From Collinsella intestinalis DSM 13280 (GTDB taxonomy: Bacteria; Actinomycetota; Coriobacteriia; Coriobacteriales; Coriobacteriaceae): a stretch of 64,000 nucleotides of DNA. Shown here piece after piece: positions 11,855 through 26,951 of the stretch. Position numbers and translations under genes: made by a program. The stretch is from positions 454,512-518,511 of the forward strand of contig NZ_GG692710.1 of assembly GCF_000156175.1 (NCBI RefSeq), written 5' to 3'. The notes beneath the pieces were generated by a model, which saw only the letters and a list, made by a program, of their open reading frames with translations, made no database searches and was not told where the DNA came from. Position 1 is the first letter of the stretch. Each line of letters opens with the position of its first letter.

Positions 11855-12781
11855 CTATCCACGAGGATGCGCCCGCGCGACAGCAGATTTAAGTCGATCC
11901 GGCGTCAAATGCGTGTAAATCTGGGTCGTAGAGAGACTTGCATGCCCAAGGAGCTCCTGCACGCTACGAAGATCCGCTCCCCCGCCGAGCAATTCAGTCG
12001 CAAACGTATGGCGCATCGCATGGGGCGTTATGTCAGATGAGATACCGGCTTTTCTTTTTAATACGTCAAAACGATATCGCAGCGCATCGCTGTTCATCGC
12101 CCTTCCCCGGTCTGAGACGAACACCGCACGGCACGCGTCGCCGCCGAGCGCGGGCGCCCGAAGCAGATTGGGCCTTCCGTTTTCAAGATACCTCTCGTAA
12201 ACCTCGATCGCCCTCGCGTATAGGGGGACGATTCGCTCCTTGGAGCCTTTGCCCAGAAGGCACACTTGTCTCTCAGCCACGCAGACATCACCGAGCTCGA
12301 GCCTGGAAAGCTCGGAGATGCGAGCGCCTGTGGCGATAAATAGCTCGAGCATGGCGGCATCCCTCAAGCCGACAGGACATGAAAGATCGGGGGCATCGAA
12401 CAAAGCCGCCAGCTCCTCAGCAGTCAGCACATGAGGAAGTTCCCTACGCTGCTTCGGGGCAACCGTCGCAAGAGGGACCGCTCCCGCCCTATGTCCCGAA
12501 TATTCCAACCAGCGAAAGAACGATCGGAGCGCGGAAAGGTGTGCTGCGACCGTAGTCGAAGCCCGGCCATCGCGACGAAATTCGGCAAGATAAGATCTCA
12601 AGTCCCGAGATGAAGGATCCAGTCCATCGACCGCGTGTGATTCGCACCAATCGGCGTACGCTTCCAAATGCTGACCGTAGGCCCTGACCGTCTCGGGAGA
12701 CAGCCCTTCAACGCACGAGATGAATACGATGAAATCATCAATCTGGGCAAGCAGCTCGCTTTGAAGACTGGAGGGCGCCAC
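11855..12781 (-). CDS. Tyrosine recombinase of the XerC/XerD family
   Basis: This site-specific recombinase is expected to resolve chromosome dimers at dif or to act in another integration reaction. The 308-aa protein has an N-terminal SAM-like core-binding domain (residues 1-100) and a C-terminal catalytic domain. The catalytic residues are visible: Arg in ATGARISELSRL, His-x-x-Arg in HAMRHTFATELL, His in LLGHASLSTTQIYTH with the nucleophile Tyr in that last motif. The start is GTG at 12781, directly after the trmFO stop (TAG-GTG), so translation is coupled. Whether it is XerC, XerD or a single-recombinase type cannot be decided from the sequence alone. Confidence 0.9.
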   Translation of the reverse strand: MAPSSLQSELLAQIDDFIVFISCVEGLSPETVRAYGQHLEAYADWCESHAVDGLDPSSRDLRSYLAEFRRDGRASTTVAAHLSALRSFFRWLEYSGHRAGAVPLATVAPKQRRELPHVLTAEELAALFDAPDLSCPVGLRDAAMLELFIATGARISELSRLELGDVCVAERQVCLLGKGSKERIVPLYARAIEVYERYLENGRPNLLRAPALGGDACRAVFVSDRGRAMNSDALRYRFDVLKRKAGISSDITPHAMRHTFATELLGGGADLRSVQELLGHASLSTTQIYTHLTPDRLKSAVARAHPRG

Positions 12782-14122
12782 CTAAGCCCGCCCGCGCTCG
12801 CCGAACAAATCCGGTCGGGTTGAGATGTAAGCGTCGAGATCAGCGAGTGCGCGAGCCGAATAAGCGGCATAGCGATCACGCTTGCTGCGGCGTTTGCCGT
12901 CCTCAAGCGGGGGAACCACACCGAAGTTGACGTGCATCGGCTGGTAGTCGACCGTATCCTTCGAGGTCGCGTACGCGACAAGTGAACCAAAGGCGCCCGT
13001 GAGCGGAAGCGACACGCGGTCGGTGGAGCTCAAATCTGCAAACGTGTTGAGCGCGGCGAACAGGCCAGACGCAACCGCCTCGGTATAACCCTCAGTGCCG
13101 GTGATCTGACCGGCAAGACGAACCCGAGTTCCCGGAACGGCAAAAGACCCATCCAGCACGCGCGGTGCATCGACGAACGTGTTTCGGTGCATGACACCGT
13201 AACGGAAGAACTCGGCATTCTCCAGACCGGGAATCATGCGGAACACCCGCTTTTGCTCGCCGAACGTGAGGTTCGTCTGGAACCCAACAAGATTGTATGC
13301 GGTGCCTTCCGCATTTTCAGAACGCAGCTGAACGGCGGCCCAAGGACGCCTGCCCGTACGCGGATCCGTCAAACCCACGGGCTTCATAGCGCCGAATCTG
13401 ATGGCATCGTGGCCGGTTCGCGCAACTTCCTCGGCCGGCTGACAGGCCTGGAACAAATCACGGCGCTCGAAATCTTTCAACACAACACGTTCGGCACCAA
13501 CGAGCGCATCGATGAATGCGTCGTATTCATCCTTAGTGAAGGGGGCATTGAGATAATCCCCGCCCCCTTGCTCGTCATAGCGAGACTGGGTGAACACGAT
13601 TGACCTGTCGATCGTCGTCGCATCGACAATCGGAGCGGCGGCATCAAAGAATGACAGGGCATCCCCGCCCACGAGCTCGAGCACCTTGTCGGAAAGGGCG
13701 GGAGAGCACAACGGACCCGCGGCGATGACGCAGGGACCCTCGGGGATATCCACAACCTCCTCGCGAATGACCTCGATAAGGGAACGGCGAGCCACCTCTT
13801 CCTCAACGAGGGCGGAGAAGCGCTCGCGATCGACGGCGAGCGCCCCTCCAGCGGGGACCGCAGCGCGCTCGGCGCAATCGATGAGAACTGATCCCATCCT
13901 ACGGAGCTCCTCCTTGAGAAGCCCGGCGGCGGAGTCCACGCGAGTCGACTTGAACGAATTAGAGCAAACGAGCTCAGCAAGCGAGCCGGTATGATGCGCA
14001 GGAGAAGAATGATCGGGCCGCATCTCATACAGGCGAACGGGTACGCCGCGATCGGCGAGCTGGCAGGCGCACTCGCTGCCCGATAGACCTCCGCCGATAA
14101 CCGTCACGCGTTCAAAGCTCAT
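12782..14122 (-). CDS. trmFO: Methylenetetrahydrofolate-tRNA-(uracil-5-)-methyltransferase
   Basis: TrmFO makes 5-methyluridine (ribothymidine) at position 54 of the tRNA T loop, using methylenetetrahydrofolate and FAD. The N-terminal dinucleotide-binding motif is VTVIGGGLSGSECACQLADRG. Further family segments are LVCSNSFKS, GGALAVDRERFS and, near the C terminus, MHVNFGVVPPL. ATG 14122 (446 aa) has GGGAG six bases upstream. An ATG two codons earlier abuts the ribosome site and is less likely. It lies between dprA and the xerC-like gene, as in many Firmicutes. Confidence 0.95.
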   Translation of the reverse strand: MSFERVTVIGGGLSGSECACQLADRGVPVRLYEMRPDHSSPAHHTGSLAELVCSNSFKSTRVDSAAGLLKEELRRMGSVLIDCAERAAVPAGGALAVDRERFSALVEEEVARRSLIEVIREEVVDIPEGPCVIAAGPLCSPALSDKVLELVGGDALSFFDAAAPIVDATTIDRSIVFTQSRYDEQGGGDYLNAPFTKDEYDAFIDALVGAERVVLKDFERRDLFQACQPAEEVARTGHDAIRFGAMKPVGLTDPRTGRRPWAAVQLRSENAEGTAYNLVGFQTNLTFGEQKRVFRMIPGLENAEFFRYGVMHRNTFVDAPRVLDGSFAVPGTRVRLAGQITGTEGYTEAVASGLFAALNTFADLSSTDRVSLPLTGAFGSLVAYATSKDTVDYQPMHVNFGVVPPLEDGKRRSKRDRYAAYSARALADLDAYISTRPDLFGERGRA

Positions 14123-14149
14123 ATTCATCTCCCTTACGTCGAATGCATC

Positions 14150-15076
14150 TCAACCATTCTGCCCCAAGCGCGTAAGCGCGTGAAGCGCAATGCCGCTCAG
14201 CGCCAACCTTCCATCAACCAATCGCTCAACGACGCCATGAACCTCGAGGTCTCCAATAAGCTGCAAGCACGCAAGAGGATCGACCCCAAGGGCGGACGCA
14301 AGATCATCGACGCGCATCGGATTGGCCAGCAGCATGTCCACCATGCGACGACCATTCGTATCCAAACCGTCCAACCCACGTGCATCGGGACGAGAAAACC
14401 GCAGAGTCCCGTATATTCTCGAAATGGCGACCTCGAGGGCCTCCTCATCCGCAATGCAACACGCCCCGTTGGCTATGAGGTAATTCGCACCCCGAGACTC
14501 GGGGGAGAATATCGAACCTGGGGCGGCCAATAGCTCGCGACCCAGCGCATTCGCCGCCTCGGCGGTGCTGAACGTGCCCGATGGCATGCCGGCCTCTGCA
14601 ACGAACGTCGCCCCGGAAAGAGCCGCTATCACCTGGTTCCTTTTGGGAAAGGCCCATTTCATGGGCTGCGTACCCCACGGCTCGAGCGACAGCACACATC
14701 CTCCCTGAAGCAATGAACGATCGATCAATCGGCCGGCACTCGACGGATACACGACGTCTGCACCCGTACCCAAAACCACGACATGCCGTCCGCCGGCATT
14801 CAGCGCGCCCATCCCTCCAGCCTGATCGCATCCTCGAGCCCCGCCCGAAACCACAACGATCCCAGACTCTGCTGCGATTCGACCGGCCATCTCCGCGATG
14901 GCCCGACCATAAGGAGTTGATTTGCGTGCGCCGATGATCGACAGAGACGGTGCATCCAAAATGCTGGGATCACCCCTCACGTAAAGGGTCTGTGGCGGAT
15001 TTGCAAGCTCCTCGACAGTCTTTGGGTAGCGTTCATCACCTCTATGAAGCTCGATACCGTCAGCAGGCTTCCCCAT
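14150..15076 (-). CDS. dprA: DNA-processing protein DprA
   Basis: DprA loads RecA on incoming single-stranded DNA during natural transformation; it is also conserved in non-competent species. The 308-aa protein has the Rossmann-like core, with VRGDPSILDAPSLSIIGARKSTPYG, VVSGGARGCDQAG and the later EAGMPSGTFSTAEAAN and AAPGSI segments. A C-terminal winged-helix-like tail follows. ATG 15076 is preceded by AAGGAGGGGAG and lies inside the last codons of comM, so the genes overlap by 17 bases. With comM and yraN it forms the usual comM-dprA neighbourhood. Confidence 0.93.
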   Translation of the reverse strand: MGKPADGIELHRGDERYPKTVEELANPPQTLYVRGDPSILDAPSLSIIGARKSTPYGRAIAEMAGRIAAESGIVVVSGGARGCDQAGGMGALNAGGRHVVVLGTGADVVYPSSAGRLIDRSLLQGGCVLSLEPWGTQPMKWAFPKRNQVIAALSGATFVAEAGMPSGTFSTAEAANALGRELLAAPGSIFSPESRGANYLIANGACCIADEEALEVAISRIYGTLRFSRPDARGLDGLDTNGRRMVDMLLANPMRVDDLASALGVDPLACLQLIGDLEVHGVVERLVDGRLALSGIALHALTRLGQNG

Positions 15077-16592
15077 CTCCCCTCCTTCCTTGCAGCAGCG
15101 ATGCCTCCATAAGATGGGCAGGCTCAATGGTCTGCGACTCGGCCATGTCGGCAATGGCTCGGGCAACCCTTGAAAGTCGTACGATCCCGCGACCAGTCAG
15201 GTGCTTTCTTCTCGCGATTTCTAGAAGGGCGGTTTTTCCCTCGTTGCTAAGAGCCTGCGAAGCGATAGCCGCATCGATACTTGTCAGCCCATCATGGCCA
15301 TCGCCGTCCCTTCGGCTGGCGACCCTCCACGAACGGAACTCTCGGCCTCGCATCACGTCTTCGAGCAATTCCGAGCTTGTTTTCCCCTCCGCACCCCGGA
15401 CAATCAGGTCGGGATCCGGTCGTGCAACGTCCACAATCAAGTCGATTCGATCGGCGAGCGGACCTCCGAGCTTCGTCCGATATCGCTCGATTGCGGCATC
15501 CGAGCAACGACAAGCGATATCACGATCGCCGAGGTATCCACACGGACAAGGATTGCTCGCGGCTATGAGCTGAAACCGCGCGGGGAACGTGAAGGTGCCA
15601 TCGACGCGTACAACGCGGATACTTCCCTCCTCAATTGGCTGCCGCAACATCTGAAGCGAGGTCGAGGGAAACTCGCCGAGCTCATCCAGATACAGAACGC
15701 CGCCATGCGCCAAGCTGATCTCACCCGGATGCACGGGCCTGCCACCGCCAACCAAACCGGCTACGGAAACCGAGTGGTGCGGGCTCCTAAAAGGTCTCTC
15801 ACCCCGGAGCAAGGAATCTACCGGCTCTCCCAATACCGAGTGGATACATAGCGCCTCCTGGCGCTCATCCTCATCAAGGGGCGGCAGAATGGTCGTCATC
15901 CTCTTCGCGAGCATTGTCTTACCCGATCCGGGAGCCCCGACCATGAGCATTCCGAGGCCGCCAGCGGCCGCAACGGCAATCCCTCTCTTCGCGATCTCCT
16001 GCCCAACCACATCGCCGTAATCTAGTGGCGGAACCAAAGGATCGGCAGGGGACTCTGTCGAAACAGGCATACCAAGCGCCGCATCGATACCGAGTCTCAA
16101 ATGGCCGATATGAGACAAGATGCCACAGGCCACGCCCTGAACCGGAACATGCGTGCCGCCCTGTCCGCCGGCGAAGGAAAGGGCGTTGTCCCGCGCGAGG
16201 AGCTGATATGCGACTTCTCCACTGACGGCGTTGACCGAACCATCGAGCCCGAGTTCTCCCGCAAAAAGATAGTCATCGAGTCCGGAAACTGGGATTTGAT
16301 TGGTTAAAGCCAGAATGGCCACCGCAATGGGAAGGTCAAATCCCGAACCCGTCTTCCTCACGTCTCCAGGCGCCAAGCTCACCGTTAACGCACATCGCGG
16401 AATCTCAAAATCGCTCGCACGCAAGGCGCAGCGGATGCGAACCCGCGCCTCCTGCACCGCCGCGTCGGCCATGCCAACGATAGTAAGACCGGGAATCGTG
16501 CCCGATGCGGATACTTCCACTGTTACGGGAAACGCCTCCACGCCGCGAATGCATGCAGCGTGGACGGCGTACACCCTGCGAGACCCGGGCAT
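15060..16592 (-). CDS. comM: ComM/YifB-type Mg-chelatase-like AAA+ ATPase
   Basis: ComM is a hexameric helicase that supports branch migration during natural transformation and perhaps other recombination. The 510-aa protein has the N-terminal ChlI-like domain (GLTIVGMADAAVQEARVRIRCAL; LPIAVAILA). The AAA+ core shows Walker A MVGAPGSGKTMLAKRM, Walker B GVLYLDELGEF and the arginine-bearing segment FQLIAASNPCPCGYLGD, where cysteines of a small zinc-binding motif are seen. ATG 16592 shares its A with the TGA of yraN (TGATG). The gene continues into dprA with a 17-base overlap. Confidence 0.94.
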   Translation of the reverse strand: MPGSRRVYAVHAACIRGVEAFPVTVEVSASGTIPGLTIVGMADAAVQEARVRIRCALRASDFEIPRCALTVSLAPGDVRKTGSGFDLPIAVAILALTNQIPVSGLDDYLFAGELGLDGSVNAVSGEVAYQLLARDNALSFAGGQGGTHVPVQGVACGILSHIGHLRLGIDAALGMPVSTESPADPLVPPLDYGDVVGQEIAKRGIAVAAAGGLGMLMVGAPGSGKTMLAKRMTTILPPLDEDERQEALCIHSVLGEPVDSLLRGERPFRSPHHSVSVAGLVGGGRPVHPGEISLAHGGVLYLDELGEFPSTSLQMLRQPIEEGSIRVVRVDGTFTFPARFQLIAASNPCPCGYLGDRDIACRCSDAAIERYRTKLGGPLADRIDLIVDVARPDPDLIVRGAEGKTSSELLEDVMRGREFRSWRVASRRDGDGHDGLTSIDAAIASQALSNEGKTALLEIARRKHLTGRGIVRLSRVARAIADMAESQTIEPAHLMEASLLQGRRGDGEAC

Positions 16593-17068
16593 CAGCGACC
16601 CGACCAATCAAACGCGCCGCATAGATGCCTTATCTCACCGATGTTGGCGGGCCTGAGGGTCACCCCTATGACATCAAATCGGATGGATGGAACCGGATAA
16701 TGATCCGCCGCGTAGCACAGGGCGATCCGACGATACCTACGCTGCTTCTCAGGGGTAACCGCTTCTTCGGGATACGCGCCGCCTCGCTCAGAACGTGAAC
16801 GTCTCGTCTTAACCTCAACCAACACGACTCCGTCGTCATCCTGATCATAGGCGACAAGATCGGCCTCCCCCTCAGGGCAACGATAATTCCGATCGATGAT
16901 GTCATAGCCTCGTTGCTCAAGATATCGCGCAGCGAGCTCTTCACCCAGGGACCCCAGGAGCTTGTTCGACATGCCATCGGCATCCTGATGTCCAAACACG
17001 ATATCATCGCCCGAAAGCATGCGGTCGACCAGTTCTCGCGCGAGATCCCTTTGCCTGTTCGTTCCCAT
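16592..17068 (-). CDS. YraN-family (UPF0102) putative endonuclease-fold protein
   Basis: The 158-aa protein belongs to UPF0102, a family with a restriction-endonuclease-like fold and no settled role. The core is LGSLGEELAARYLEQRGYDIIDRNYRCPEGEADLVAYD, followed by VVLVEVKTRRS. These give the E...D...ExK catalytic pattern of such nucleases. The first 33 residues precede the usual family start, but GAGGAGG before ATG 17068 supports the longer form. It is coupled to comM by a TGATG junction, which suggests a role in DNA processing. Confidence 0.88.
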   Translation of the reverse strand: MGTNRQRDLARELVDRMLSGDDIVFGHQDADGMSNKLLGSLGEELAARYLEQRGYDIIDRNYRCPEGEADLVAYDQDDDGVVLVEVKTRRSRSERGGAYPEEAVTPEKQRRYRRIALCYAADHYPVPSIRFDVIGVTLRPANIGEIRHLCGAFDWSGR

Positions 17069-17227
17069 AGCGCCTCCTCACATCGGGTGAGTCGAAGTAT
17101 GGACCCGAGCTTTTGAATGGCCTCAGGGCAATACGAACGCGATTCCAAAGCACTTTGGAACCAATCTGCCCAAAAGAGAAAACACGAGAGACCGTGCGGT
17201 GGTTTGGTCGAGAGGGGATGGAAAACG

Positions 17228-18016
17228 TTAAAAAAGACGGGCGGTCTCCAGGAAATTACCGCAAAAGCTCACGCGATGGACGGGAGACAGACCGTGATCC
17301 TTGATTGCCTGGATGTGTTCGGCCGAGGCATAGCCTTTCGATTGAGCGAGATGGTACTCGGGATATTCCGTATCGAGCTCAACCATAAGCTCGTCACGAG
17401 TCACCTTGGCGACGATGGAGGCAGCGGCAATGCAGGCGACCTTGGCGTCACCCTTCACAACATCGCGCTCATTGGGAACGGCACCCAACGGATTGCCGTC
17501 CATGAGCACGCAGTCGGGCTCCAGGCCCGTGTCGGCAACGGCACCGGCGACCGCCTCACGAAGGGCGCGGGCCATGCCGATCTCGTCGATGCGGGAAGGA
17601 GCGATATGACAGATGCCGACAGCCGTTGCAACCTCCGCGATTCGAACGGCGAGCATCTCTCGCTTTGCGGGAGTCAACTGTTTGGAATCATTGATTCCCC
17701 AAATGCGCGGCTCGGAGGGAAGGCTTACGGCGCAAACGGTCAGAGGGCCGGCAACTGACCCGCGTCCGACCTCATCGACACCGACGACGACCCCCTCGCC
17801 GCCAAGCTGTGCCATGGTTTCGTACATCGCATCGACGCGCTCGCGCTCCGCACGCTCCTTTGAAAGCCGCTTCAAGGCGCGCTCGCACGCCTTTTGAACC
17901 TGCGCCCGCGGATCCTCGGAATACCGATCGACCAAAGCCTCGATCTGGTCGATGGACGCACTGCTCAACTCGGCGGCGACCTGGGCTGCCGACGCGGAAC
18001 TCGTCATATTGGCCAT
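17228..18016 (-). CDS. rnhB: Ribonuclease HII
   Basis: RNase HII removes RNA from RNA-DNA hybrids and starts ribonucleotide excision repair. The 262-aa protein has a 70-residue helical N-terminal extension like that of Bacillus-type enzymes. The catalytic core follows with GVDEVGRGSVAGPLTVCAVSL (Asp-Glu pair), INDSKQLTPAKRE, CVLMDGNPLG, and GDAKVACIAAASIVAKVTRDELM. I chose ATG 18016, preceded by AGAGGAAG; a TTG at 18034 in frame is weaker. A terminator separates it from rplS. The 160 bases downstream to yraN hold no gene. Confidence 0.95.
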   Translation of the reverse strand: MANMTSSASAAQVAAELSSASIDQIEALVDRYSEDPRAQVQKACERALKRLSKERAERERVDAMYETMAQLGGEGVVVGVDEVGRGSVAGPLTVCAVSLPSEPRIWGINDSKQLTPAKREMLAVRIAEVATAVGICHIAPSRIDEIGMARALREAVAGAVADTGLEPDCVLMDGNPLGAVPNERDVVKGDAKVACIAAASIVAKVTRDELMVELDTEYPEYHLAQSKGYASAEHIQAIKDHGLSPVHRVSFCGNFLETARLF

Positions 18017-18061
18017 ACCGGCTCTTCCTCTCAACGCTTGGACGCACCTTCGATGTACACG

Positions 18062-18092
18062 AAAACGGGCCGCCCAAAGAGCGGCCCGTTTC
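18062..18092 (-). terminator. Terminator after rplS
   Basis: An 11-bp perfect stem (AAACGGGCCGC / GCGGCCCGTTT, arms 18063-18073 and 18081-18091) around a 7-base loop lies about 30 bases after the rplS stop. The minus-strand 3' arm ends in a T run. Confidence 0.8.
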
Positions 18093-18124
18093 CTGTTGCG
18101 GATCTGTACTCCGCGAAAAGCGAC

Positions 18125-18466
18125 TTAGCGCTTCTCGGGGATGCGGGCAGCCTTGCCCACCTTGTCGCGCAGGTAGTAGAGCTTGGCGCGACGGACCTTA
18201 CCGTGACGCACGACCTCGAGCTTGGCGATCTTCGGGGAGTGAACCGGGAAGGTACGCTCGACGCCGACGCCATAGGAGACCTTGCGGACCGTGAAGGTCT
18301 CGCGAGAACCGGCACCCTGGAGACGGATGACGTCGCCCTGGAAGACCTGGACGCGCTCGCGGTCACCCTCCTTGATGCGGTAGTGCACCTTGACGTTGTC
18401 GCCGACCAGGATGCGAGGCATGTCCTCGCGGATCTGCTGACGCTCGATTGCGCGGATGTAATCCAT
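18125..18466 (-). CDS. rplS: 50S ribosomal protein L19
   Basis: L19 sits at the 30S-50S interface. The 113-aa protein shows the family sequence [31 protein letters not shown], followed by [50 protein letters not shown]. It stands alone between its own promoter (18537-18565) and a terminator, rather than with trmD and rimM as in many bacteria. Confidence 0.98.
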
Positions 18467-18490
18467 GACAGATTCCTTACTCTTCTAGAG

Positions 18491-18513
18491 GTGCCGCACG
18501 CGTACGCCGGCAC
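18491..18513 (-). promoter_or_regulatory. Hairpin in the rplS leader
   Basis: GTGCC at 18491-18495 pairs with GGCAC at 18509-18513, with further GC pairing inside, about 25 bases before the start codon. Ribosomal-protein leaders for L19 are known in other phyla; a regulatory role here is unproven. Confidence 0.35.
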
Positions 18514-18536
18514 ATAGGTTGAACAAACAGCTTGGT

Positions 18537-18565
18537 AGTATACACAAGATGCAGGTCGAACCCAA
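18537..18565 (-). promoter_or_regulatory. Promoter of rplS
   Basis: On the minus strand TTGGGT (18565-18560) and TATACT (18542-18537) are separated by exactly 17 bases, about 70 bases before the rplS start. Confidence 0.65.
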
Positions 18566-18671
18566 GGAAAACCTCAACTCCTCCACGGGAATCCCCGCAC
18601 CGAGAACCCTTGAAAACACCCGTACTCCCCCACGATGCCCTCACCGGGACGAAACGAAGACCGGCAGGTCA

Positions 18672-19577
18672 TCACACATCACGTTGGCGAAGGTTGATCT
18701 GGCGCTTTCCCTGCTCGCCCACCGGCTCATCAAACTCGTAGACACCCAAGGACTTCAAAAACGGGCGCAGGCGCTTATACCCGTAGTTGCGAACGTCGAA
18801 ATCGGGAAGACGCTTCCCAAGCTGATCGCCAAGCAGCCCCAGGGAGATCCAGCCGTCTTCATCGCCGAAGGAATCGATGACGGCGTTGATGGCGCAGCGA
18901 ATCGCACGCAGATGGCGGCGCTTATCGGCTCGGCTCATCTCGCCGAACGTCACTTCCCCCTCAAGCTCATCATCGACATCCTCACAGGCGCAATCGAAAG
19001 ACTCGGACGTATTGCCGCCGGCATCGCCAGGTCGACGGCGACGTCGACGGGAGGGCGTCTTTCCCGTCGAGGCCGCCATATCGGTGTCATCACGGGCATC
19101 CTGCGCGTCTTCAGATTCCTCGTCCTGTCGCTGGGCGTAGAGCAGATCGAGGTATTTGAACTGGTTACAGGCAGAGATGAACGGCTTGGGGGTCTTTTGC
19201 TCGCCCATGCCGATAACGATCATGCCGCTTTCGCGCAAACGGGCGACGAGTCGCGTGAAATCGGAATCGGAACTGACGATGGCGAATCCGTCGACCGTTC
19301 CCGAATACAGGATGTCCATCGCGTCGATGATCATCGCGGAGTCGGTGGCATTCTTGCCATACGTGTAGCTGTACTGCTGCATGGGAATGATCGAATGGTC
19401 GAGCAGGCAACTCTTCCAGCTCGCCAATCGCGGACTCGTCCAATCGCCATAGATGCGCTTGTACGTCGCAACGCCCGCGTTGGAAATCTCATCGAGGATT
19501 ACCTTGATGTACTTCTCGCTAACGTTGTCGGCATCGATCAAGACGGCGAATCTCAGCTCGGAAGTCGTCTCAAACAT
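18672..19577 (-). CDS. NYN-domain ribonuclease-like protein with C-terminal OST-HTH/LOTUS domain
   Basis: The 301-aa protein combines two RNA-related domains. The N-terminal NYN/PIN-like domain (about 8-150) has the acidic motifs VLIDADNVSEKYIKVILDE, DSAMIIDAMDILYSG and IVSSDSDFTRLVARLRE. These supply the aspartates of a metal-dependent nuclease site. A low-complexity acidic-basic linker with an RRRRR run (about 155-195) leads to a C-terminal OST-HTH/LOTUS-like domain (AIRCAINAVIDSFGDEDGWISLGLLGDQLGKRLPDF). The family is known from LabA/DUF88 proteins; substrates in bacteria are mostly unknown. GAAAGGA precedes the ATG. It is monocistronic between rplS and ftsH. Confidence 0.85.
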   Translation of the reverse strand: MFETTSELRFAVLIDADNVSEKYIKVILDEISNAGVATYKRIYGDWTSPRLASWKSCLLDHSIIPMQQYSYTYGKNATDSAMIIDAMDILYSGTVDGFAIVSSDSDFTRLVARLRESGMIVIGMGEQKTPKPFISACNQFKYLDLLYAQRQDEESEDAQDARDDTDMAASTGKTPSRRRRRRPGDAGGNTSESFDCACEDVDDELEGEVTFGEMSRADKRRHLRAIRCAINAVIDSFGDEDGWISLGLLGDQLGKRLPDFDVRNYGYKRLRPFLKSLGVYEFDEPVGEQGKRQINLRQRDV

Positions 19578-19606
19578 CTTGTCCTTTCAGGCCATTCGCA
19601 CGCAGA

Positions 19607-19636
19607 GACCCCGCTCGCACATGGGCGGGCGGGGTC
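19607..19636 (-). terminator. Hairpin after ftsH
   Basis: GACCCCGC at 19607-19614 pairs with GCGGGGTC at 19629-19636 shortly after the ftsH stop. The T tract is weak, so it may be an inefficient terminator. Confidence 0.5.
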
Positions 19637-19664
19637 GGATTTCAGCCGCGAGCGATAGCCACTG

Positions 19665-21572
19665 TTACTCCTGGGGGCCCTTGGGCATGAGCGGATTCTC
19701 GCGAGTGAGAAGGCTCATGAACTCATCGCCCGTGATGGTCTCCTTCTTGTAGAGGTAATGGGCGAGCTCATGCAGCTTGAACTTGTTTTCCTTCAGGATC
19801 TGCATGGCGCGCTCATGCGCCTCGGTAATGAGCTTGAGGACGGCCGCGTCAACGCGCTCCGCGGTGCCGGGGGCGCAAGTAAGCGACGTGTCCTGGTTGA
19901 GGTAGGCGTTCTGAACGGTGCCGAGCGCCATCATGCCAAACTCCTCGGACATACCGAACCGCGTAATCATGTTGCGCGCGAGCTTGGTCGCCTGCTCGAT
20001 ATCGTTCGCGGCACCGGTGGTCATCTCGCCGAAGATGAGCTCCTCAGCAGCACGGCCGCCGCAATAGACGGCGAGCTTGTCCAAAACCTCTTGCTTGGTG
20101 GTGAGGAAACGCTCATCTTCCTCCACCTGCATGGTATAGCCGAGGGCGCCCGACGTGCGGGGCACGATGGTGATCTTGGTGACCGGAGCCGAGCCCTTCT
20201 GACGAGCCGCCACGATGGCGTGGCCGATCTCGTGGTACGCGACGACCTGCTTCTCGTGATCGGACAAAACGGTGGACTTGCGCTGCTGGCCGGCGATGAC
20301 CACCTCGACGCTCTCCTCGAAGTCCTCCTGGGTCGCACGCTTGCGACCGAGGCGGACGGCGCGAAGGGCGCCCTCGTTAATGATATTGGCCAGATCGGCA
20401 CCGGAAGCACCGGGTGTGGCGCGGGCGATCGTGGTCAAGTCGATGCCGGGCTCGGTCTTCACATCCTTGGTATGAAGCTCGAGGATGGCCTTACGACCGG
20501 CCAGGTCAGGCAGCTCGACGGGCACGCGGCGGTCGAAGCGACCAGGACGCAGCAATGCGGCGTCGAGCGAGTCGGGGCGGTTGGTGGCCGCAAGGACGAC
20601 GATGCCCTTTTGGTTGTCGAAGCCGTCCATCTCGGTGAGGAGCTGGTTGAGCGTCTGCTCGCGCTCGTCGTTTCCAGAGAAACCGCCACCGTCGCGCTTC
20701 TTGCCGATGGTATCGATCTCATCGATGAAGACGATGCAGGGGGCCTTTTCCTTGGCCTGCTTGAACAGGTCGCGAACCTTGGCGGCGCCGCGGCCAACGA
20801 ACATCTCGACGAACTCGGAACCCGAAATGGAGAAGAACGGTACACCGGCCTCGCCGGCAACGGCCTTGGCGAGCAGGGTCTTGCCCGTGCCGGGAGGACC
20901 CACGAGCAGGGCACCGCGCGGCAACTTGGCACCGATCTCCTCGTAGCGCTGCGGGTTCTCAAGGAAGTCCACGACCTCCTTGAGAGATTCCTTTGCCTCC
21001 TCCTGGCCGGCAACATCCTTGAAGGTCACACCGACATCCTTGGATGCGACGATGCGCGCACCGGACTTACCGAGGTTGCCGCCGCCCAGGCCGCCGAAGC
21101 CGCCGCCGGAGAAATCCATGGAGGGGTTGTCGTCTCCCATGGCCTTCTTCATGCGACGGTTGAGCCACCAGCCGAGCAGGAAGAAGATGAGCATGGGTGC
21201 GAACACGGTCACCATCAGGTAGGTCCACATACCGGAATCCTGCTTGGGGATGGTGACCTTGAGCTCGGCACCTGCCTCCTCGATGCGGTTCGTCAAATCG
21301 ACGTCGGTAGGCATGGTGGTGGTGCGATAGGCCTTGTCCTTCTCGCCCTTGCGCGTGTACATGGCCTGCGCGTCATCGGTTGTATAGCTGATCTCCTTGA
21401 CCTTTTTGTCCTTAAGGTCATCAAGCAGCTGGGAATACGTGACATCCTCGACCTGCATACCGCCGTTTTGGAAGCTCGGGAACAGCACATTGCTGAGAAC
21501 GAGGTACACCGCGAAGGCGATGAGCACGTAGAGGATCATGTTGCGTCTACGCTTGTGATCGTCCATTTCCAT
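19665..21572 (-). CDS. ftsH: ATP-dependent zinc metalloprotease FtsH
   Basis: FtsH is the hexameric membrane protease that degrades misfolded membrane proteins and short-lived regulators. The 635-aa protein has two N-terminal membrane segments ([20 protein letters not shown] and [18 protein letters not shown]) around a small extracytoplasmic domain. The AAA domain follows, with Walker [21 protein letters not shown], Walker [12 protein letters not shown] and the second region of homology. The zinc site is HEIGH instead of the more frequent HEAGH. The third zinc ligand region is around [22 protein letters not shown] lies seven bases before the ATG. Confidence 0.97.
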
Positions 21573-21649
21573 GGAAAGACTCCGTCCGTACGTTCAGTAT
21601 CTGGTTCAGGATACCCCGCGGGGCGCAATCTAAACGGATGAGCGAGGCG

Positions 21650-23044
21650 CTAGATGGAGAGCTCGAGCTTATCCCGACGGCGCTCGGCATGGCTGAGCCA
21701 ATGACCGAAGTGATGATAGGCGACGAACAGGCAGGCCGTGAGAATCCATGTAACCGGATACACCATCAGCATGGTCTGAAGCATATGGTGCATCGGCACC
21801 ACGACGAGCAGCCAGATGACACGGAACACCACGGTGCCCACAACCGTCAGCAACATGGGGCGCAGGCTCTCGCCGGAGCCGCGGATGGCGCCCGATGTGT
21901 TGTCGACAATCGAATAGAACAGATAGAACGGCGCGATGAAATGAATCATGGTCGAGGTATAGCCCACCACCGTGGAATCATCAATGAAGAATCGGGCCAG
22001 CGGATCGACGAACGTGATGAGGAACAGTGCCATCGAGCCAATGAGGGTCACCGTGATGACGAGCGAGGTATGGTAACCGCGGCGCATGCGTTCGTAATTC
22101 CGCGCGCCGAAGTTCTGCGCGGAGAACGTGGTCATGGCCACGCCGAGCGCCTCGGTGACCATCCACACGATGCCGTCCAGGCGGGCGGCAAGGCCCCAGC
22201 CAGTCACGGCGTCCGCTCCGAAAGAATTCACCGTAGACTGCACGATGATGTTAGAGATCGAATAGAGTGAGGCTTGGATCCCCAACGGCAGGCCGGTGGC
22301 GACCATACTCTTGCAGATGACGGGGTCGATGCGCAGCCGGGAGAACTCGAGGTGCCACGGTCCATCGGCGCGCATAAGGCGCAAAAGCACCATAGAGGCG
22401 TTGATCGCAATAGTGAGAGCCGTCGCGATGCCGCAGCCCAGAGCCTCCATCTTGAACCAGGCGACGAAAATCAGGTCGAAGACCACGTTGAAAATGCAGC
22501 CGCTCGCGATAATGAGCGCGGGCGCACGCGTATCGCCCACGGCACGCAGAAGAGCGGTACCCATGTTGAGGACAAGCGAGAACACCATGGCCCCAAAATA
22601 GCAGCGAGAATAAGCCACGGCCTCCCACATGAGCTCGTCGGGCGTCCCCATAAGCGTGAGGATGCTCGGCAAGAATATGACTCCGAACACCGATATGCAA
22701 GCACCGATGATGAGCGCGAGCGTCATGGCGGTGTGGACGGAACGAGAGAGCCGGTCGTCGTCGCGCTGGCCGAAAAACTGACCGGTAATCACAGCGCAAC
22801 CGGCACCAAGGCCGACGCAAAAACCAATTGCAAGCTCAGAGAGGGACAGCGTGGACTGAATGCCGCCAAGTGCGATCTTGCCACCGAACTGCCCGACGAT
22901 ATACGTGTTGATGAGGGCATAGGCCTGCTGGAAGAAGGAGCTGAAGAAAATGGGCACACATAGGGCAAGAAGCTGACGCCAAATGACACCCTGTGTGACG
23001 TCGATCGAACCATTCCCGGCACGTTTTACCATATGCTCCCCCAT
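21650..23044 (-). CDS. MATE-family multidrug/cation efflux transporter
   Basis: The 464-aa protein has about twelve hydrophobic segments and typical MATE signatures. The first helix begins WRQLLALCVPIFFSSFFQQAYALINTYIVGQFGG, followed by GLGAGCAVITGQFFGQRDDD. In the second half VTGWGLAARLDGIVWMVTEALGVAMTTFSAQNFGARNYERMRRG repeats the pattern. Such carriers export drugs or metabolites in exchange for Na+ or H+; the substrate cannot be predicted. The start is ambiguous between ATG 23044 and ATG 23031. It lies downstream of a palindromic intergenic region. Confidence 0.9.
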   Translation of the reverse strand: MGEHMVKRAGNGSIDVTQGVIWRQLLALCVPIFFSSFFQQAYALINTYIVGQFGGKIALGGIQSTLSLSELAIGFCVGLGAGCAVITGQFFGQRDDDRLSRSVHTAMTLALIIGACISVFGVIFLPSILTLMGTPDELMWEAVAYSRCYFGAMVFSLVLNMGTALLRAVGDTRAPALIIASGCIFNVVFDLIFVAWFKMEALGCGIATALTIAINASMVLLRLMRADGPWHLEFSRLRIDPVICKSMVATGLPLGIQASLYSISNIIVQSTVNSFGADAVTGWGLAARLDGIVWMVTEALGVAMTTFSAQNFGARNYERMRRGYHTSLVITVTLIGSMALFLITFVDPLARFFIDDSTVVGYTSTMIHFIAPFYLFYSIVDNTSGAIRGSGESLRPMLLTVVGTVVFRVIWLLVVVPMHHMLQTMLMVYPVTWILTACLFVAYHHFGHWLSHAERRRDKLELSI

Positions 23045-23085
23045 CCCCGTTCAACTGCAGCCATACGAGCCTACGGCAACAACAT

Positions 23086-23129
23086 GGGGACCGCAACCCT
23101 TCGCCAATTATCGGCAGGTCGCAGTCCCC
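23086..23129. repeat. Extragenic palindrome containing REP-like motif copy 2
   Basis: GGGGACCGCAACC at 23086-23098 is an imperfect inverse (11 of 13) of GGTCGCAGTCCCC at 23117-23129. The right arm continues into the 25-base motif 23113-23137, which matches 738-762 at 21 of 25 bases. The element lies between the SpoU methyltransferase gene and the MATE gene. Confidence 0.5.
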
Positions 23130-23175
23130 AAACAACGCGGCGTTAAAGCACGAAAATGAAAGGTGCAGAGGTCGA

Positions 23176-24087
23176 CTAGGCAAACATGCCCGGACGGTAG
23201 TGATAGCCGTTGTCGACATGGGGGCAAAGCTGCCAGAACGCCACGGCACTTGCCGCAGCCACATTGAGGGAGTCCACGCCATGTGCCATGGGGATGCGGA
23301 TGGTCTTGTCGCACCCCGCTATAGTCCTGGCTTGCAGTCCCGTACCTTCGGTGCCCATGAAGATGGCATGGCGCTCGATATCCAGAAGCGACGGATCGTC
23401 GAGTGAGACGGAATCATCGGAAAGAGCCATGGCAGAGCACGTGAACCCCGCACCCTTGAGGACCTCGAAGCCGTCATACGGCCACGCGCGTGCCTCGCTG
23501 CCGATGCGCGTCCAAGGTACCTGGAACACCGTGCCCATGGACACACGCGCGGAGCGACGATACAGCGGATCGACGCACGTGGGGCTTACCAGGATGCCGT
23601 CGACATTGAGCGCGGCGGCGGAGCGAAAGATCGCACCGACATTGGAATGGTCGACGATGCCCTCGAGCACGCACACGCGCACCGGGCGACCATCGGCACG
23701 CTCGACGAGCCCGTCGAGAAAAGCGCCCGGATCGGCAAGTGGCGGTCGGCGAAACGCCGCAAGGGCTCCACGCGTGACGGAGAAGCCCGTGAGCTGCTCC
23801 AGCAGGTCCATCGCCCCCACAAACACAGGGATCTCAAGCTCAGGATGCGCATCGGCGACCTTGTCGAGCAACGGTGTCAGTTGCTCGAGCCAACGCTCCC
23901 CCAACAGAAAGCTCACCGGCTCGAGCCCCGCCTCAACCGCGCGCTCAATGACTTTGCCGCTCTCCGCGATGAAGATCCCCTTCTCGGGCTCCAACACAGA
24001 ACGCAGCTGGCGCTCGGTGAGTTTGGTGTACGCCTCGAGACGCGGGTCGTCGAGTGTCTCGATACGAATGATCTGCACGTCTGCCAT
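23176..24087 (-). CDS. TrmH/SpoU-family RNA 2'-O-methyltransferase
   Basis: This SPOUT-class enzyme would methylate ribose 2'-OH groups in rRNA or tRNA with S-adenosylmethionine. The 303-aa protein has an N-terminal L30e-like substrate-binding part (about 15-110). The knotted catalytic domain shows motif 1 VDHSNVGAIFRSAAALN, motif 2 AIFMGTEGTGL and motif 3 IRIPMAHGVDSLNVAAASAVAFWQL. The start ATG shares a base with the folA stop (TGATG), so the two are co-translated. The exact nucleotide target is not evident. Confidence 0.9.
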   Translation of the reverse strand: MADVQIIRIETLDDPRLEAYTKLTERQLRSVLEPEKGIFIAESGKVIERAVEAGLEPVSFLLGERWLEQLTPLLDKVADAHPELEIPVFVGAMDLLEQLTGFSVTRGALAAFRRPPLADPGAFLDGLVERADGRPVRVCVLEGIVDHSNVGAIFRSAAALNVDGILVSPTCVDPLYRRSARVSMGTVFQVPWTRIGSEARAWPYDGFEVLKGAGFTCSAMALSDDSVSLDDPSLLDIERHAIFMGTEGTGLQARTIAGCDKTIRIPMAHGVDSLNVAAASAVAFWQLCPHVDNGYHYRPGMFA

Positions 24088-24605
24088 CAGCAGTCCCCAC
24101 GGCGATACGTGACAAACTCAAACATGATCCCCTCATCACCCTGTCCGGGCTGGACCGTCTGGACATCAGATCGCCCCGCGACATACCAGGCGGGATCCTG
24201 CGAGAGATCGGGGAAATGCGTATCAACCTCATGCGCCACATGATTATGGGTGATCTCGGCCTCTGAACAATACGGCAGGAACTGCCCATACACCGCCCCC
24301 CCGCCGATAACCCAGGCAACGTCCTCATCCGCAACCGCGGCAAGCGCCTCGTCGACCGAATGAACGACCTCGACACCCTCACGGGAGAACGCCTCGTCGC
24401 GCGTCAACACGATATTGCGGCGGTCCTTGAGCGGACGGCCGCCCGGAAAGCTCTCGAGCGTCTTGCGGCCCATAATGACCGGATGTCCCTTCGTCTTATT
24501 GACGAAGTGCCTCATATCCGCACGATTGGACACGACCATGTCCCCATCGCGCCCAATCCCCCAGTCGTCGCACACCGCGACGATGGCCTTGAGTTCACAC
24601 GTCAT
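24087..24605 (-). CDS. folA: Dihydrofolate reductase
   Basis: DHFR reduces dihydrofolate to tetrahydrofolate with NADPH. It regenerates the cofactor used by thymidylate synthase, whose gene is ten bases upstream in the same unit. The 172-aa protein shows AIVAVCDDWGIGRDGDMVV at the N terminus, then HPVIMGRKTLESFPGGRPLKDRRNIVLTRD and WVIGGGAVYGQFL. The substrate-contacting acid, usually Asp or Glu in the first helix, appears as Asp in NRADMRHF. Length and motifs are normal. Trimethoprim sensitivity cannot be judged from the sequence. Confidence 0.95.
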   Translation of the reverse strand: MTCELKAIVAVCDDWGIGRDGDMVVSNRADMRHFVNKTKGHPVIMGRKTLESFPGGRPLKDRRNIVLTRDEAFSREGVEVVHSVDEALAAVADEDVAWVIGGGAVYGQFLPYCSEAEITHNHVAHEVDTHFPDLSQDPAWYVAGRSDVQTVQPGQGDEGIMFEFVTYRRGDC

Positions 24606-24614
24606 GATGCCCGC

Positions 24615-25463
24615 CTAGACCGCAATCGGAATGTTCTTGACCTGAGGACCATGGTTATAGTCCTCGACGATCAAATCTTCCGTCGTGAAATCATAGAAAT
24701 TCGTGACCTCGGGGTTAAGCGAGACCTTGGGCGCCGGATACTGCGGACGCTCGATGAGCTCGCGCACGATGTTGACATGGCGGTCGTAGATGTGCGCATC
24801 GACGATCACGTGCAGAAGCTCGCCTGCAATCATGTCGCAGTGACGCGCGACCATCATGAGCAGGATGGCGTACTGGCAAACGTTCCAGTTGTTCGCAGCG
24901 AGAATGTCCTGGCTACGCTGCATGAGGACCATATTGAGCACAGGCTTGTCGCAACCGGGCTCGGAGGTCACGTTGTACGTGACGCTGTAGGCACACGGAT
25001 ACAGATGCATCTCCGAAAGATCGGAGAAGGTATACATATTCGTCATGATGCGACGCGAGTACGGCGTGTGGGTGAGATCGTACAGGACACGGTCCATCTG
25101 GTCGAAGTCGCCCTCCTTGTAGTGCGACTTCTGCGCGATCTGATACCCGTACGCCTTGCCAATCGAACCCGTTTCATCGGCCCACTGATCCCAGATATGG
25201 GAATTGAGGTCGTTGATGTTGTTGGACTTCTTCTGGTAGATCCACAAGATCTCGTCCATCGCGGACTTGAGAGCGGTGCGGCGCAGCGTCAGCGCAGGGA
25301 ACTCCTCGCGCAGGTCGTAGCGGTTGGTGACACCAAAGTTCTTGATGGTGTAGGCAGGGGTGCCGTCCTCCCAAACCGGGCGGACCTTCTCCCCCTCCGT
25401 GGTCGTACCGTGATCGAGAATGTCTCGGCACATGGACACGAATAGCTTGTCTGCCTTGCTCAC
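24615..25463 (-). CDS. thyA: Thymidylate synthase (folate-dependent), divergent active-site motif
   Basis: ThyA converts dUMP to dTMP using methylenetetrahydrofolate, and folA directly downstream recycles its product. The 282-aa protein keeps the family order: RRTALKSAMDEILWIYQKKSNN, the catalytic cysteine in MHLYPCAYSVTYNV, LMQRSQDILAANNWNVCQYAIL and IVDAHIYDRHVN. The residue after the catalytic Cys is Ala, where the well-known enzymes have His (PCH). The flanking motifs suggest a functional variant clade rather than decay. The start ATG is seven bases after the ffh stop. Confidence 0.92.
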   Translation of the reverse strand: MSKADKLFVSMCRDILDHGTTTEGEKVRPVWEDGTPAYTIKNFGVTNRYDLREEFPALTLRRTALKSAMDEILWIYQKKSNNINDLNSHIWDQWADETGSIGKAYGYQIAQKSHYKEGDFDQMDRVLYDLTHTPYSRRIMTNMYTFSDLSEMHLYPCAYSVTYNVTSEPGCDKPVLNMVLMQRSQDILAANNWNVCQYAILLMMVARHCDMIAGELLHVIVDAHIYDRHVNIVRELIERPQYPAPKVSLNPEVTNFYDFTTEDLIVEDYNHGPQVKNIPIAV

Positions 25464-25469
25464 AAGATC

Positions 25470-26951
25470 CTACTTCCGCTTGAACTGATCGTTCATCTGC
25501 ATGAGCTTGTCCATATCGGACATGCCTCCGCCCATGCCGCCCATCTGATTCATGAGCTGGTTCATATTCACGCCACCCATACCGGGGATACCGGGCATGC
25601 GCATCTTCTTGCCCTTCTTCCCCTTCTTGCCCTTTTTGCCGGACATCTGCTGCTGGGTCATGGCGCGCATCTTGCCCATCATCTTGTTCATCTCGCCCCA
25701 CTGCTTCATCAGGGCGTTCACGTCGGTCGGCGTGAGACCGCAGCCGCGAGCGATACGGGCGCGGCGCTGACCGTTGATGATGGAGGGGCGGCGGCGCTCC
25801 TCGGCCGTCATGGACAGGATAATGGCCTCGTTGCGATCGAAGATCTTCTCATCGAGGTTGCCGCCCATCTGGTTGAGAGCGCGCTGGCCACCGGGGAGCA
25901 TGCCGAGGATGCCCTTCATGCCGCCCATCTTCTTGACGGCCTTCATCTGCTCGAGCATGTCGTCCATCGTGAAGCCATCGCGCAGCATGCGCTCGGCAGA
26001 GGCGAGCTGCTCGGCGGTCGCGGCCTCCTGAGCCTTCTCGATGATGCCGATGACATCGCCCATACCGAGGATGCGTTTGGCCATGCGCTCGGGATTGAAG
26101 ACCTCAAGGGAATCGGGTTTCTCGCCCATGGAGACGAACTTGATGGGCTTACCCGTGACCTCGCGGACGGACAGCGCGCCGCCACCGCGGGCGTCGCCGT
26201 CGAGCTTAGAGATGATCACACCGTCGAAGTCGGTGCGCTCGGCGAAGGTGGACACCACGTTGACGATATCCTGACCGGTCATCGCGTCGACGACCATGAG
26301 GACCTGATCGGGCTTGACCGCCTTCTTGATGTCAACGGCCTCCTGCATCATCTGCTCATCGATCTGCAAACGACCGGCGGTGTCGACGATGACCACGTCG
26401 CGCATGTTGTCGACTGCCTCGCGGATGGATGCGCGGGCGATATCGACCGGATGCGCGCCATCGCCGCGGAACACCGGCACGCCGATCTCGCCGCCGAGGG
26501 TGGCGAGCTGATCGGCAGCGGCGGGACGATAGACGTCGCACGCGGCGAGAAGCGGGCTTTTGCCCTGTTTCTTGAGCATATAGGCGAGCTTGACGGCTGC
26601 CGTGGTCTTACCGGAACCCTGCAGGCCCACGAGCATGATCACATTGGGAATGCGGCTTGAGAGAACGAGCTTGCTCTCGGTTCCGCCGAGCAGCTCGGTG
26701 AGCTCGTCGAGGACGATCTTGACAACGTTTTGCGCCGGAGTGAGGGACTCCATGACCTCGGAGGCGAGGCAGCGCTCCTTGGTGCGCGTGACGAAGTCCT
26801 TCACGACGCGATAGTTGACGTCCGCCTCGAGCAGGGCCATGCGAATCTCGCGCATAGCGGCGTTGATGTCCGCCTCGGTGAGCTTGCCTTTGCCGCGCAG
26901 GCGGTCGAAGGTATCGTTCAGGCGATCGGAAAGCGAGCCGAAAGCTGCCAT
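25470..26951 (-). CDS. ffh: Signal recognition particle protein Ffh
   Basis: Ffh binds signal sequences and the 4.5S RNA and delivers ribosomes to FtsY at the membrane. The 493-aa protein has the N domain, then the GTPase G domain with GLQGSGKTTAAVKLAYML, VYRPAAADQLATLG, VIVDTAGRLQIDE and ISKLDGDARGGGALS. The methionine-rich M domain forms the C terminus, ending in a glycine- and methionine-rich tail (NQMGGMGGGMSDMDKLMQ). ATG 26951 is preceded by GGGAG. A TTG five codons earlier is an unlikely alternative. It follows ftsY with a 120-base gap. Confidence 0.97.
   Translation of the reverse strand: MAAFGSLSDRLNDTFDRLRGKGKLTEADINAAMREIRMALLEADVNYRVVKDFVTRTKERCLASEVMESLTPAQNVVKIVLDELTELLGGTESKLVLSSRIPNVIMLVGLQGSGKTTAAVKLAYMLKKQGKSPLLAACDVYRPAAADQLATLGGEIGVPVFRGDGAHPVDIARASIREAVDNMRDVVIVDTAGRLQIDEQMMQEAVDIKKAVKPDQVLMVVDAMTGQDIVNVVSTFAERTDFDGVIISKLDGDARGGGALSVREVTGKPIKFVSMGEKPDSLEVFNPERMAKRILGMGDVIGIIEKAQEAATAEQLASAERMLRDGFTMDDMLEQMKAVKKMGGMKGILGMLPGGQRALNQMGGNLDEKIFDRNEAIILSMTAEERRRPSIINGQRRARIARGCGLTPTDVNALMKQWGEMNKMMGKMRAMTQQQMSGKKGKKGKKGKKMRMPGIPGMGGVNMNQLMNQMGGMGGGMSDMDKLMQMNDQFKRK

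Follow-up and report, generated by a model that had tools for sequence, protein, structure and literature searches.

The gene under study, one of many in the window (the whole 64,000-nucleotide stretch of Collinsella intestinalis DSM 13280 DNA that was analysed), encodes a protein with an N-terminal NYN nuclease domain and a C-terminal OST-HTH/LOTUS domain, and the linker between them carries a short motif, RRxPGDxGG, that recurs in other RNA proteins of the same cell. The RRPGDxGG core is present in all four of the NYN enzyme, RicT, PNPase and a DEAD-box helicase of this genome. This shared linker and tail motif is the new element; the NYN-OST-HTH architecture is not new and has been in print since 2010 (PMC2848206). 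We propose, at slightly better than an even chance, that the protein is a MARF1-like endoribonuclease attached through RRxPGDxGG to an RNase Y-type decay complex, its cleavage, RNA preference, docking and partner identity all being predictions. The features on which this proposal is built are listed in Table 1.

Table 1. Features of the NYN-OST-HTH gene, its product and its neighbours, in window positions. Conservation counts refer to distinct aligned proteins and are biased upward.
Feature	Position	Strand	Basis
NYN-OST-HTH gene, 301 aa	18672..19577	minus	ORF reading
Shine-Dalgarno-like AAAGGA, before the NYN-OST-HTH ATG	19582..19587	minus	read from sequence
ftsH, upstream neighbour	19665..21572	minus	ORF reading and genus comparison
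rplS, downstream neighbour	18125..18466	minus	ORF reading and genus comparison
NYN (PIN-like) nuclease domain, residues 9-142	19152..19553	minus	Pfam, pLDDT, MARF1/VPA0982 fold match
Helix 143-162 behind the nuclease domain	19092..19151	minus	AlphaFold model
Linker 163-214, predicted mostly disordered	18936..19091	minus	pLDDT
OST-HTH/LOTUS winged helix-turn-helix, residues 216-298	18684..18932	minus	Pfam; 2kpm and 2kzv by profile and structure
D15 of LIDADN, predicted metal ligand	19533..19535	minus	conserved in 101/102
D79, predicted active-site Asp	19341..19343	minus	conserved in 102/102
D104-S105-D106 of SSDSDF, predicted active-site Asp	19260..19268	minus	conserved in 102/102
Linear motif RRRPGDAGG, residues 180-188	19014..19040	minus	close-homologue linkers and genome pattern search
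Arg run, residues 177-182	19032..19049	minus	first part of the RRxPGDxGG motif

The linkers of close homologues vary in length and sequence apart from this one element: [RKH]x?PGDxG, mostly in the form RRxPGDxGG, occurs in 21 of 32 distinct proteins, some of which have identical linkers. When the linkers were shuffled for 2000 rounds, the mean number of carriers was 0.04 and the maximum was 2. The sample comprised 34 loci, and its 32 distinct proteins come from genomes of the family (29) and from contigs titled Collinsella or Enorma (3). The motif is missing from the other 11 linkers, and no PGDxG was found in the linker region of 73 other homologues. In other families, the core was seen in half of the PNPase tails read (5 of 10) and in none of the 10 NYN homologues read, which come from two families, a pattern suggesting that the motif was acquired by the NYN protein in this family. 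Three homologues from another family (L357, L358 and L360, in genomes G185, G146 and G092) show two OST-HTH matches set far apart by a long low-complexity linker, in which no PGD motif was found. The initial annotation had singled out the Arg run as an aid to RNA contact. The run is real, but a general role in RNA contact is not supported, as R/K runs of at least five residues occur in only 7 of 102 linkers; the run was therefore rejected as a conserved feature by itself.

A DNA pattern for RRxPGDxGG gave two exact matches in the 1.8-Mb genome, against none for the reversed pattern. One is the NYN gene. The other is a basic tail behind an N run that follows a PSP1-type ORF, and it reads like the intact tail of the same protein in the nearest relative. 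The one-mismatch matches include the PNPase tail RRPGDNGG, also behind an N run, and the C-terminus of the DEAD-box helicase, GRRPGDRGGRR-stop. Relaxing the pattern to as many as two mismatches yields 145 matches against 63 reversed, so that much of this longer list is noise. The N runs, of about 100 bases and probably assembly gaps, cross the ricT, pnp and helicase genes here (L164, L262, L263).

The exact pattern was then applied to 197 related genomes, of which 65 make up the family. These 65 contain 118 exact matches and no match to the reversed pattern. Of the 117 that were classified (one in G052 was left out), 92 lie in frame in genes recognized by homology, namely 56 PSP1/RicT, 18 NYN, 10 PNPase and 8 DEAD; a further 11 fall in RicT-, PNPase- or helicase-like tails situated at a contig end or after an N run, and 14 are scattered. 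Pfam confirmed PSP1, PNPase and DEAD in one representative each, and NCBIfam identified the PSP1 protein as RicT (262.8 bits against the 70 required). Against the 25 NCBIfam models shown, the DEAD-box helicase stayed below the cut-off of every named helicase, scoring 375 bits where CshA requires 646. Counted by genome, the exact pattern marks RicT in 54/65 by homology (59 with tail-only cases included), PNPase in 10/65 and the DEAD-box protein in 8/65, counts from which sequence variants are missed. Across the phylum, the same pattern occurs in 254 of 396 genomes and is not specific alone; exact-pattern counts were for that reason rejected as proof by themselves, and the gene-level classification was adopted instead.

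PNPase offers a sample drawn by homology, without reference to the motif. Of 37 loci, 36 have intact tails, and 23 of these are distinct; the PNPase of our own genome breaks off at an N run, and its tail, taken from behind the run, is not among the 36. R.?PGD.G is present in 23/23 distinct intact tails (36 loci), 10-13 residues from the C-terminal end, compared with a mean of 0.16 and a maximum of 3 carriers after shuffling, in a setting where all motif tails are R/G-rich and many sampled genomes are near-copies of each other. The tail of G024 has the variant RAPGDHGQ. The corresponding figures of 52/52 for RicT and 8/8 for DEAD tails carry no weight, since these tails were selected by the motif. 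Four RicT tails contain two RRRPGDxGG copies, namely L203 (G032), L249 (G057), L194 (G051) and L196 (G055), two of the four being contig-end tails that read like RicT; copy number varies as if tuning binding strength.

Gene order in a sister genus connects two of the motif carriers. In 4/4 genomes sampled (G047, G051, G055, G058), the NYN gene is preceded on its own strand, at a distance of about 110-264 bp, by a gene that carries RRRPGDKGG once or twice in its tail. The PSP1 domain of this upstream gene can be seen in G047 and G058, and the other two contigs hold the tail only. The view in the initial annotation that context gives no clue was thus too pessimistic, given this upstream ricT and the motif common to PNPase, the DEAD-box helicase and RicT. 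In G051, G055 and G058, the ricT-adjacent genomes read, the NYN linker has no motif, and the docking reading gains no support for those species.

Because the tag is common to RicT, PNPase, the DEAD-box helicase and the NYN enzyme, it is most simply read as a tag for docking to a decay complex. RNase Y, which is encoded in this genome (E 1.7e-214), is the hub that we infer for the motif proteins; an RNA-binding role for the motif is also possible. For B. subtilis, excerpts of a published account describe a stable RicT-RNase Y complex, an interaction between CshA and RNase Y that appears in all reports, and some evidence for PNPase (PMC11321564); RNase Y, enolase and PNPase were recovered in a YaaT/RicT pull-down, again as excerpted (PMC13230545). 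Weighing against the proposal, an RNase Y complex is described as having resisted isolation in Bacillus and Staphylococcus (PMC11321564). This Firmicutes network has RicT, PNPase, a DEAD-box helicase and RNase Y in common with our set; the excerpts of both accounts mention neither a shared motif nor an NYN-OST-HTH partner (PMC11321564, PMC13230545), and the helicase here, which falls below the CshA cut-off, may differ from the CshA of that network. The proposed arrangement also resembles RNase E degradosomes, where short linear motifs likewise gather RNA-decay enzymes; as far as excerpts of PMC11964227 go, the motifs of RNase E lie in the scaffold, whereas here one motif recurs in the tails and linker of the presumed clients. 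A literature search on degradosomes, short linear motifs and PNPase returned, by title and abstract opening, proteobacterial RNase E or fungi only, and no paper on Collinsella and a degradosome was found in the open-licence literature.

On the proposed mechanism, the NYN domain would cut RNA at its Asp cluster in a metal-dependent manner, and the C-terminal winged helix would hold the RNA, which may be G-rich or folded if the LOTUS binding of other proteins applies. A 2020 study by Ding reportedly concerns LOTUS domains and G-quadruplexes. Excerpts from later papers cite the binding of G-quadruplex RNA by LOTUS domains as conserved across kingdoms (PMC8331183) and name bacterial domains too (PMC12247748). 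The flexible linker would join the two domains and carry RRxPGDxGG, which would dock the NYN enzyme, PNPase, the helicase and RicT on a common partner. The NYN enzyme would then serve as an accessory endonuclease, with PNPase and the helicase processing its cut products. The wider proposition, that the mRNA-decay complex of this lineage is built with RRxPGDxGG as a repeated client tag and that one pocket recruits all four proteins, the LOTUS RNase included, we place just short of an even prospect.

The protein could instead be a stand-alone RNase with its own targets, the motif being an RNA-binding element that basic tails have reached in parallel. The 2010 prediction was of an enzyme acting alone, with no conserved gene neighbourhood (PMC2848206), every recurring carrier of the motif is a basic-tailed RNA protein, and no consistent neighbour emerged at 81 distant loci (80 genome contigs and one viral). 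Conserved neighbours were rejected there, the top clusters appearing in 9 and 6 loci, the former of ABC-transporter appearance as judged from sequence. Parallel origin has more difficulty with a PGD core kept in four proteins and held at a near-fixed distance from the end of PNPase, with the rarity of the motif in residue shuffles, and with its absence from homologues outside the family. We regard this explanation as rather unlikely.

The nuclease half of the docking proposal depends on the domains and the active site. The initial annotation had called an NYN nuclease joined to an OST-HTH/LOTUS domain, and Pfam profiles, conservation and the predicted structure all back this; its open reading frame is present, on the minus strand. 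In the profile search that it had suggested as a check, both domains exceeded their Pfam cut-offs, with 120.6 against 24.2 bits for NYN (PF01936; E 9.8e-35, residues 8-142 of the submitted translation) and 46.2 against 23.8 bits for OST-HTH (PF12872; E 4.2e-12, residues 225-277), positions that shift one residue later when the whole protein is given. Pfam found both in 86/86 aligned homologues. The score for the NYN family TIGR00288 was below its curated cut-off (26 against 178.45 bits). An AlphaFold model from the 86-sequence alignment reached a mean pLDDT of 84.1. Its NYN domain is confident (block pLDDT 89-98 from residue 11 onward), its C-terminal winged helix mostly so, and pLDDT is below 50 in the linker at residues 170-172, 177-181 and 185-213.

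Foldseek with this model gave six matches at E < 0.001, five of them MARF1 NYN chains and the sixth VPA0982, with 2kzv ranking next (E 1.3e-3). VIA-align gave Z 18.1 and 17.0 for MARF1 NYN and 16.3 for VPA0982. For the bacterial OST-HTH structures 2kzv and 2kpm, both also matched in the PDB profile comparison, Z was 9.0 and 7.2; since unrelated folds start at Z 9.0, the OST-HTH assignment rests mainly on sequence profiles. The OST-HTH part also resembles IscX/YfhJ, the Pfam Fe-S_assembly profile being found in 6 of 86 members (best 2.9e-5) and the NYN-OST-HTH profile picking up two IscX chains in the PDB (E 0.17); from these sequence likenesses, a distant link between IscX and OST-HTH is possible.

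The acidic residues D79, D85, D88, D104 and D106 are conserved in 102/102 distinct aligned proteins and D15 in 101/102, figures that are biased upward because 80 genome loci were recruited via conserved query peptides, one of them containing D85 and D88. The loss of acidic residues that the initial annotation had said would count against it is therefore not seen, within this bias. Four loci whose start could not be read (L016, L039, L052, L077) were left out of the alignment, as were L076, L091, L019 and two identical rows (104 to 102); the 86 sequences used for the model are the subset with ATG starts, some long or redundant ones being omitted. The NYN domain of human MARF1 is, in excerpts of its structural account, an endoribonuclease with a four-Asp pocket, and mutating residues 426/427 of its acidic patch (Asp358, 426, 427 and 452) strongly reduces cleavage (PMC6294520). 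The VIA-align superposition spans residues 6-151 of the model and 349-500 of the MARF1 chain. D15 would be equivalent to Asp358 if the start of this alignment is ungapped, and D79 and D104, spaced 25 residues apart as are Asp427 and Asp452, may correspond to that pair. A weak profile match to VPA0982 (E 0.14) also pairs D79 with an Asp of that protein.

Compared with known systems, the protein has the same domains in the same order as the LK-nuclease (DUF88, now NYN PF01936) plus OST-HTH family of Anantharaman et al., with the N-terminal NYN, the C-terminal winged helix and the acidic residues all found and RNA cleavage predicted; a figure legend there includes a Cryptobacterium curtum sequence, and the main text has neither the linker motif nor a link to other RNA-decay proteins (PMC2848206). 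With MARF1/limkain b1 of animals it shares the NYN fold, the Asp cluster and OST-HTH. MARF1 has several LOTUS domains and RRMs, whereas Pfam finds one OST-HTH and no RRM here, so that the protein is MARF1-like and not a member of MARF1. VPA0982 of Vibrio parahaemolyticus (2qip) has the NYN fold in common; its chain is 165 residues long and is matched only by the NYN positions of our profile. The remark in the initial annotation that bacterial versions lack a firm target is in line with the 2010 account of a stand-alone bacterial RNase with no known target (PMC2848206). By titles and abstract openings, no study on the function of a bacterial NYN-OST-HTH protein was found, and two candidate papers proved to concern a PhoH-like protein and a gene table. 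That silence, in which no activity of a bacterial member is seen, would suit a regulatory protein that binds RNA and has a weak or idle nuclease centre; with invariant Asp residues and a close fold match to the active MARF1 domain, such a protein is improbable.

Among related genomes, OST-HTH was found in 116/197, and across the phylum in 130/396. It is present in 20 of 43 genomes of the genus (our own included) and in 22/22 from the other genera of the family. In a 38-genome FtsH tree, all 19 non-carriers form one group, separated by one change (SH-aLRT 99). Because the non-carriers are a single group and the other genera all have the gene, these results point to a single loss, and the gene was apparently lost once within the genus. 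The clade without it has kept the motif in RicT of 18/19 tree genomes (G024 having no exact match) and in the PNPase tails read.

The initial annotation had placed the gene next to rplS and ftsH, and only the latter neighbour recurs. The gene stands within about 0.5 kb behind ftsH in 17 of the 19 genus carriers in which the ftsH region was read (16 other genomes and the window) and elsewhere in the other two; rplS is beside it in 4 of those 16, the four closest relatives read. In 12/19 non-carriers one gene cluster, which we take to be DUF523-like, sits within about 80 bp behind ftsH, and in carrier G020 a gene of that cluster comes after the NYN gene. The genome holds a second ftsH (G000:C2:187651-189456), 47% identical to that of the window, and two ftsH matches (E < 1e-150) were present in 37 of 39 same-genus genomes searched. 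Translation starts at an ATG (19577-19575, minus strand). At 19607-19636, in the gap between ftsH and the NYN gene, there is a perfect 8-base inverted repeat (gaccccgc/gcggggtc) without a T run, which might allow partial read-through of ftsH transcription. No promoter-like sites were found near the gene, the one terminator-like site lies on the plus strand in a count not above shuffles, and an Rfam scan of window positions 12000-26000 gave no structured RNA at the gathering score.

Homologues were also found in 370 plasmid records, of which 124 reach 80% coverage or more, and in 8 phage-collection records. One of them (L150), on the conjugative plasmid pAgK84, lies between traA and, one small gene on, a conjugative DNA transfer gene. 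That the gene is a mobile-element or defence nuclease settled on the chromosome, as these plasmid and phage relatives and the one beside conjugation genes could suggest, is very improbable given its presence throughout the other genera of the family, its regular place behind ftsH and the absence of a match to any PADLOC family at E up to 1.

Bacterial NYN-OST-HTH proteins have been without a target or partner since 2010, though their animal relatives matter in the germ line. The shared tag suggests a cellular workplace for a likely RNA-cutting enzyme, and a motif that this enzyme shares with three other RNA-decay proteins makes the question of its partner directly testable. If the proposal is true, the docking tag would be a new way to assemble an RNA-decay complex, in a gut-bacterial genus, and its client-tag design would be the reverse of that of RNase E. 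The bacterial LOTUS RNase would then work in mRNA decay and not on its own.
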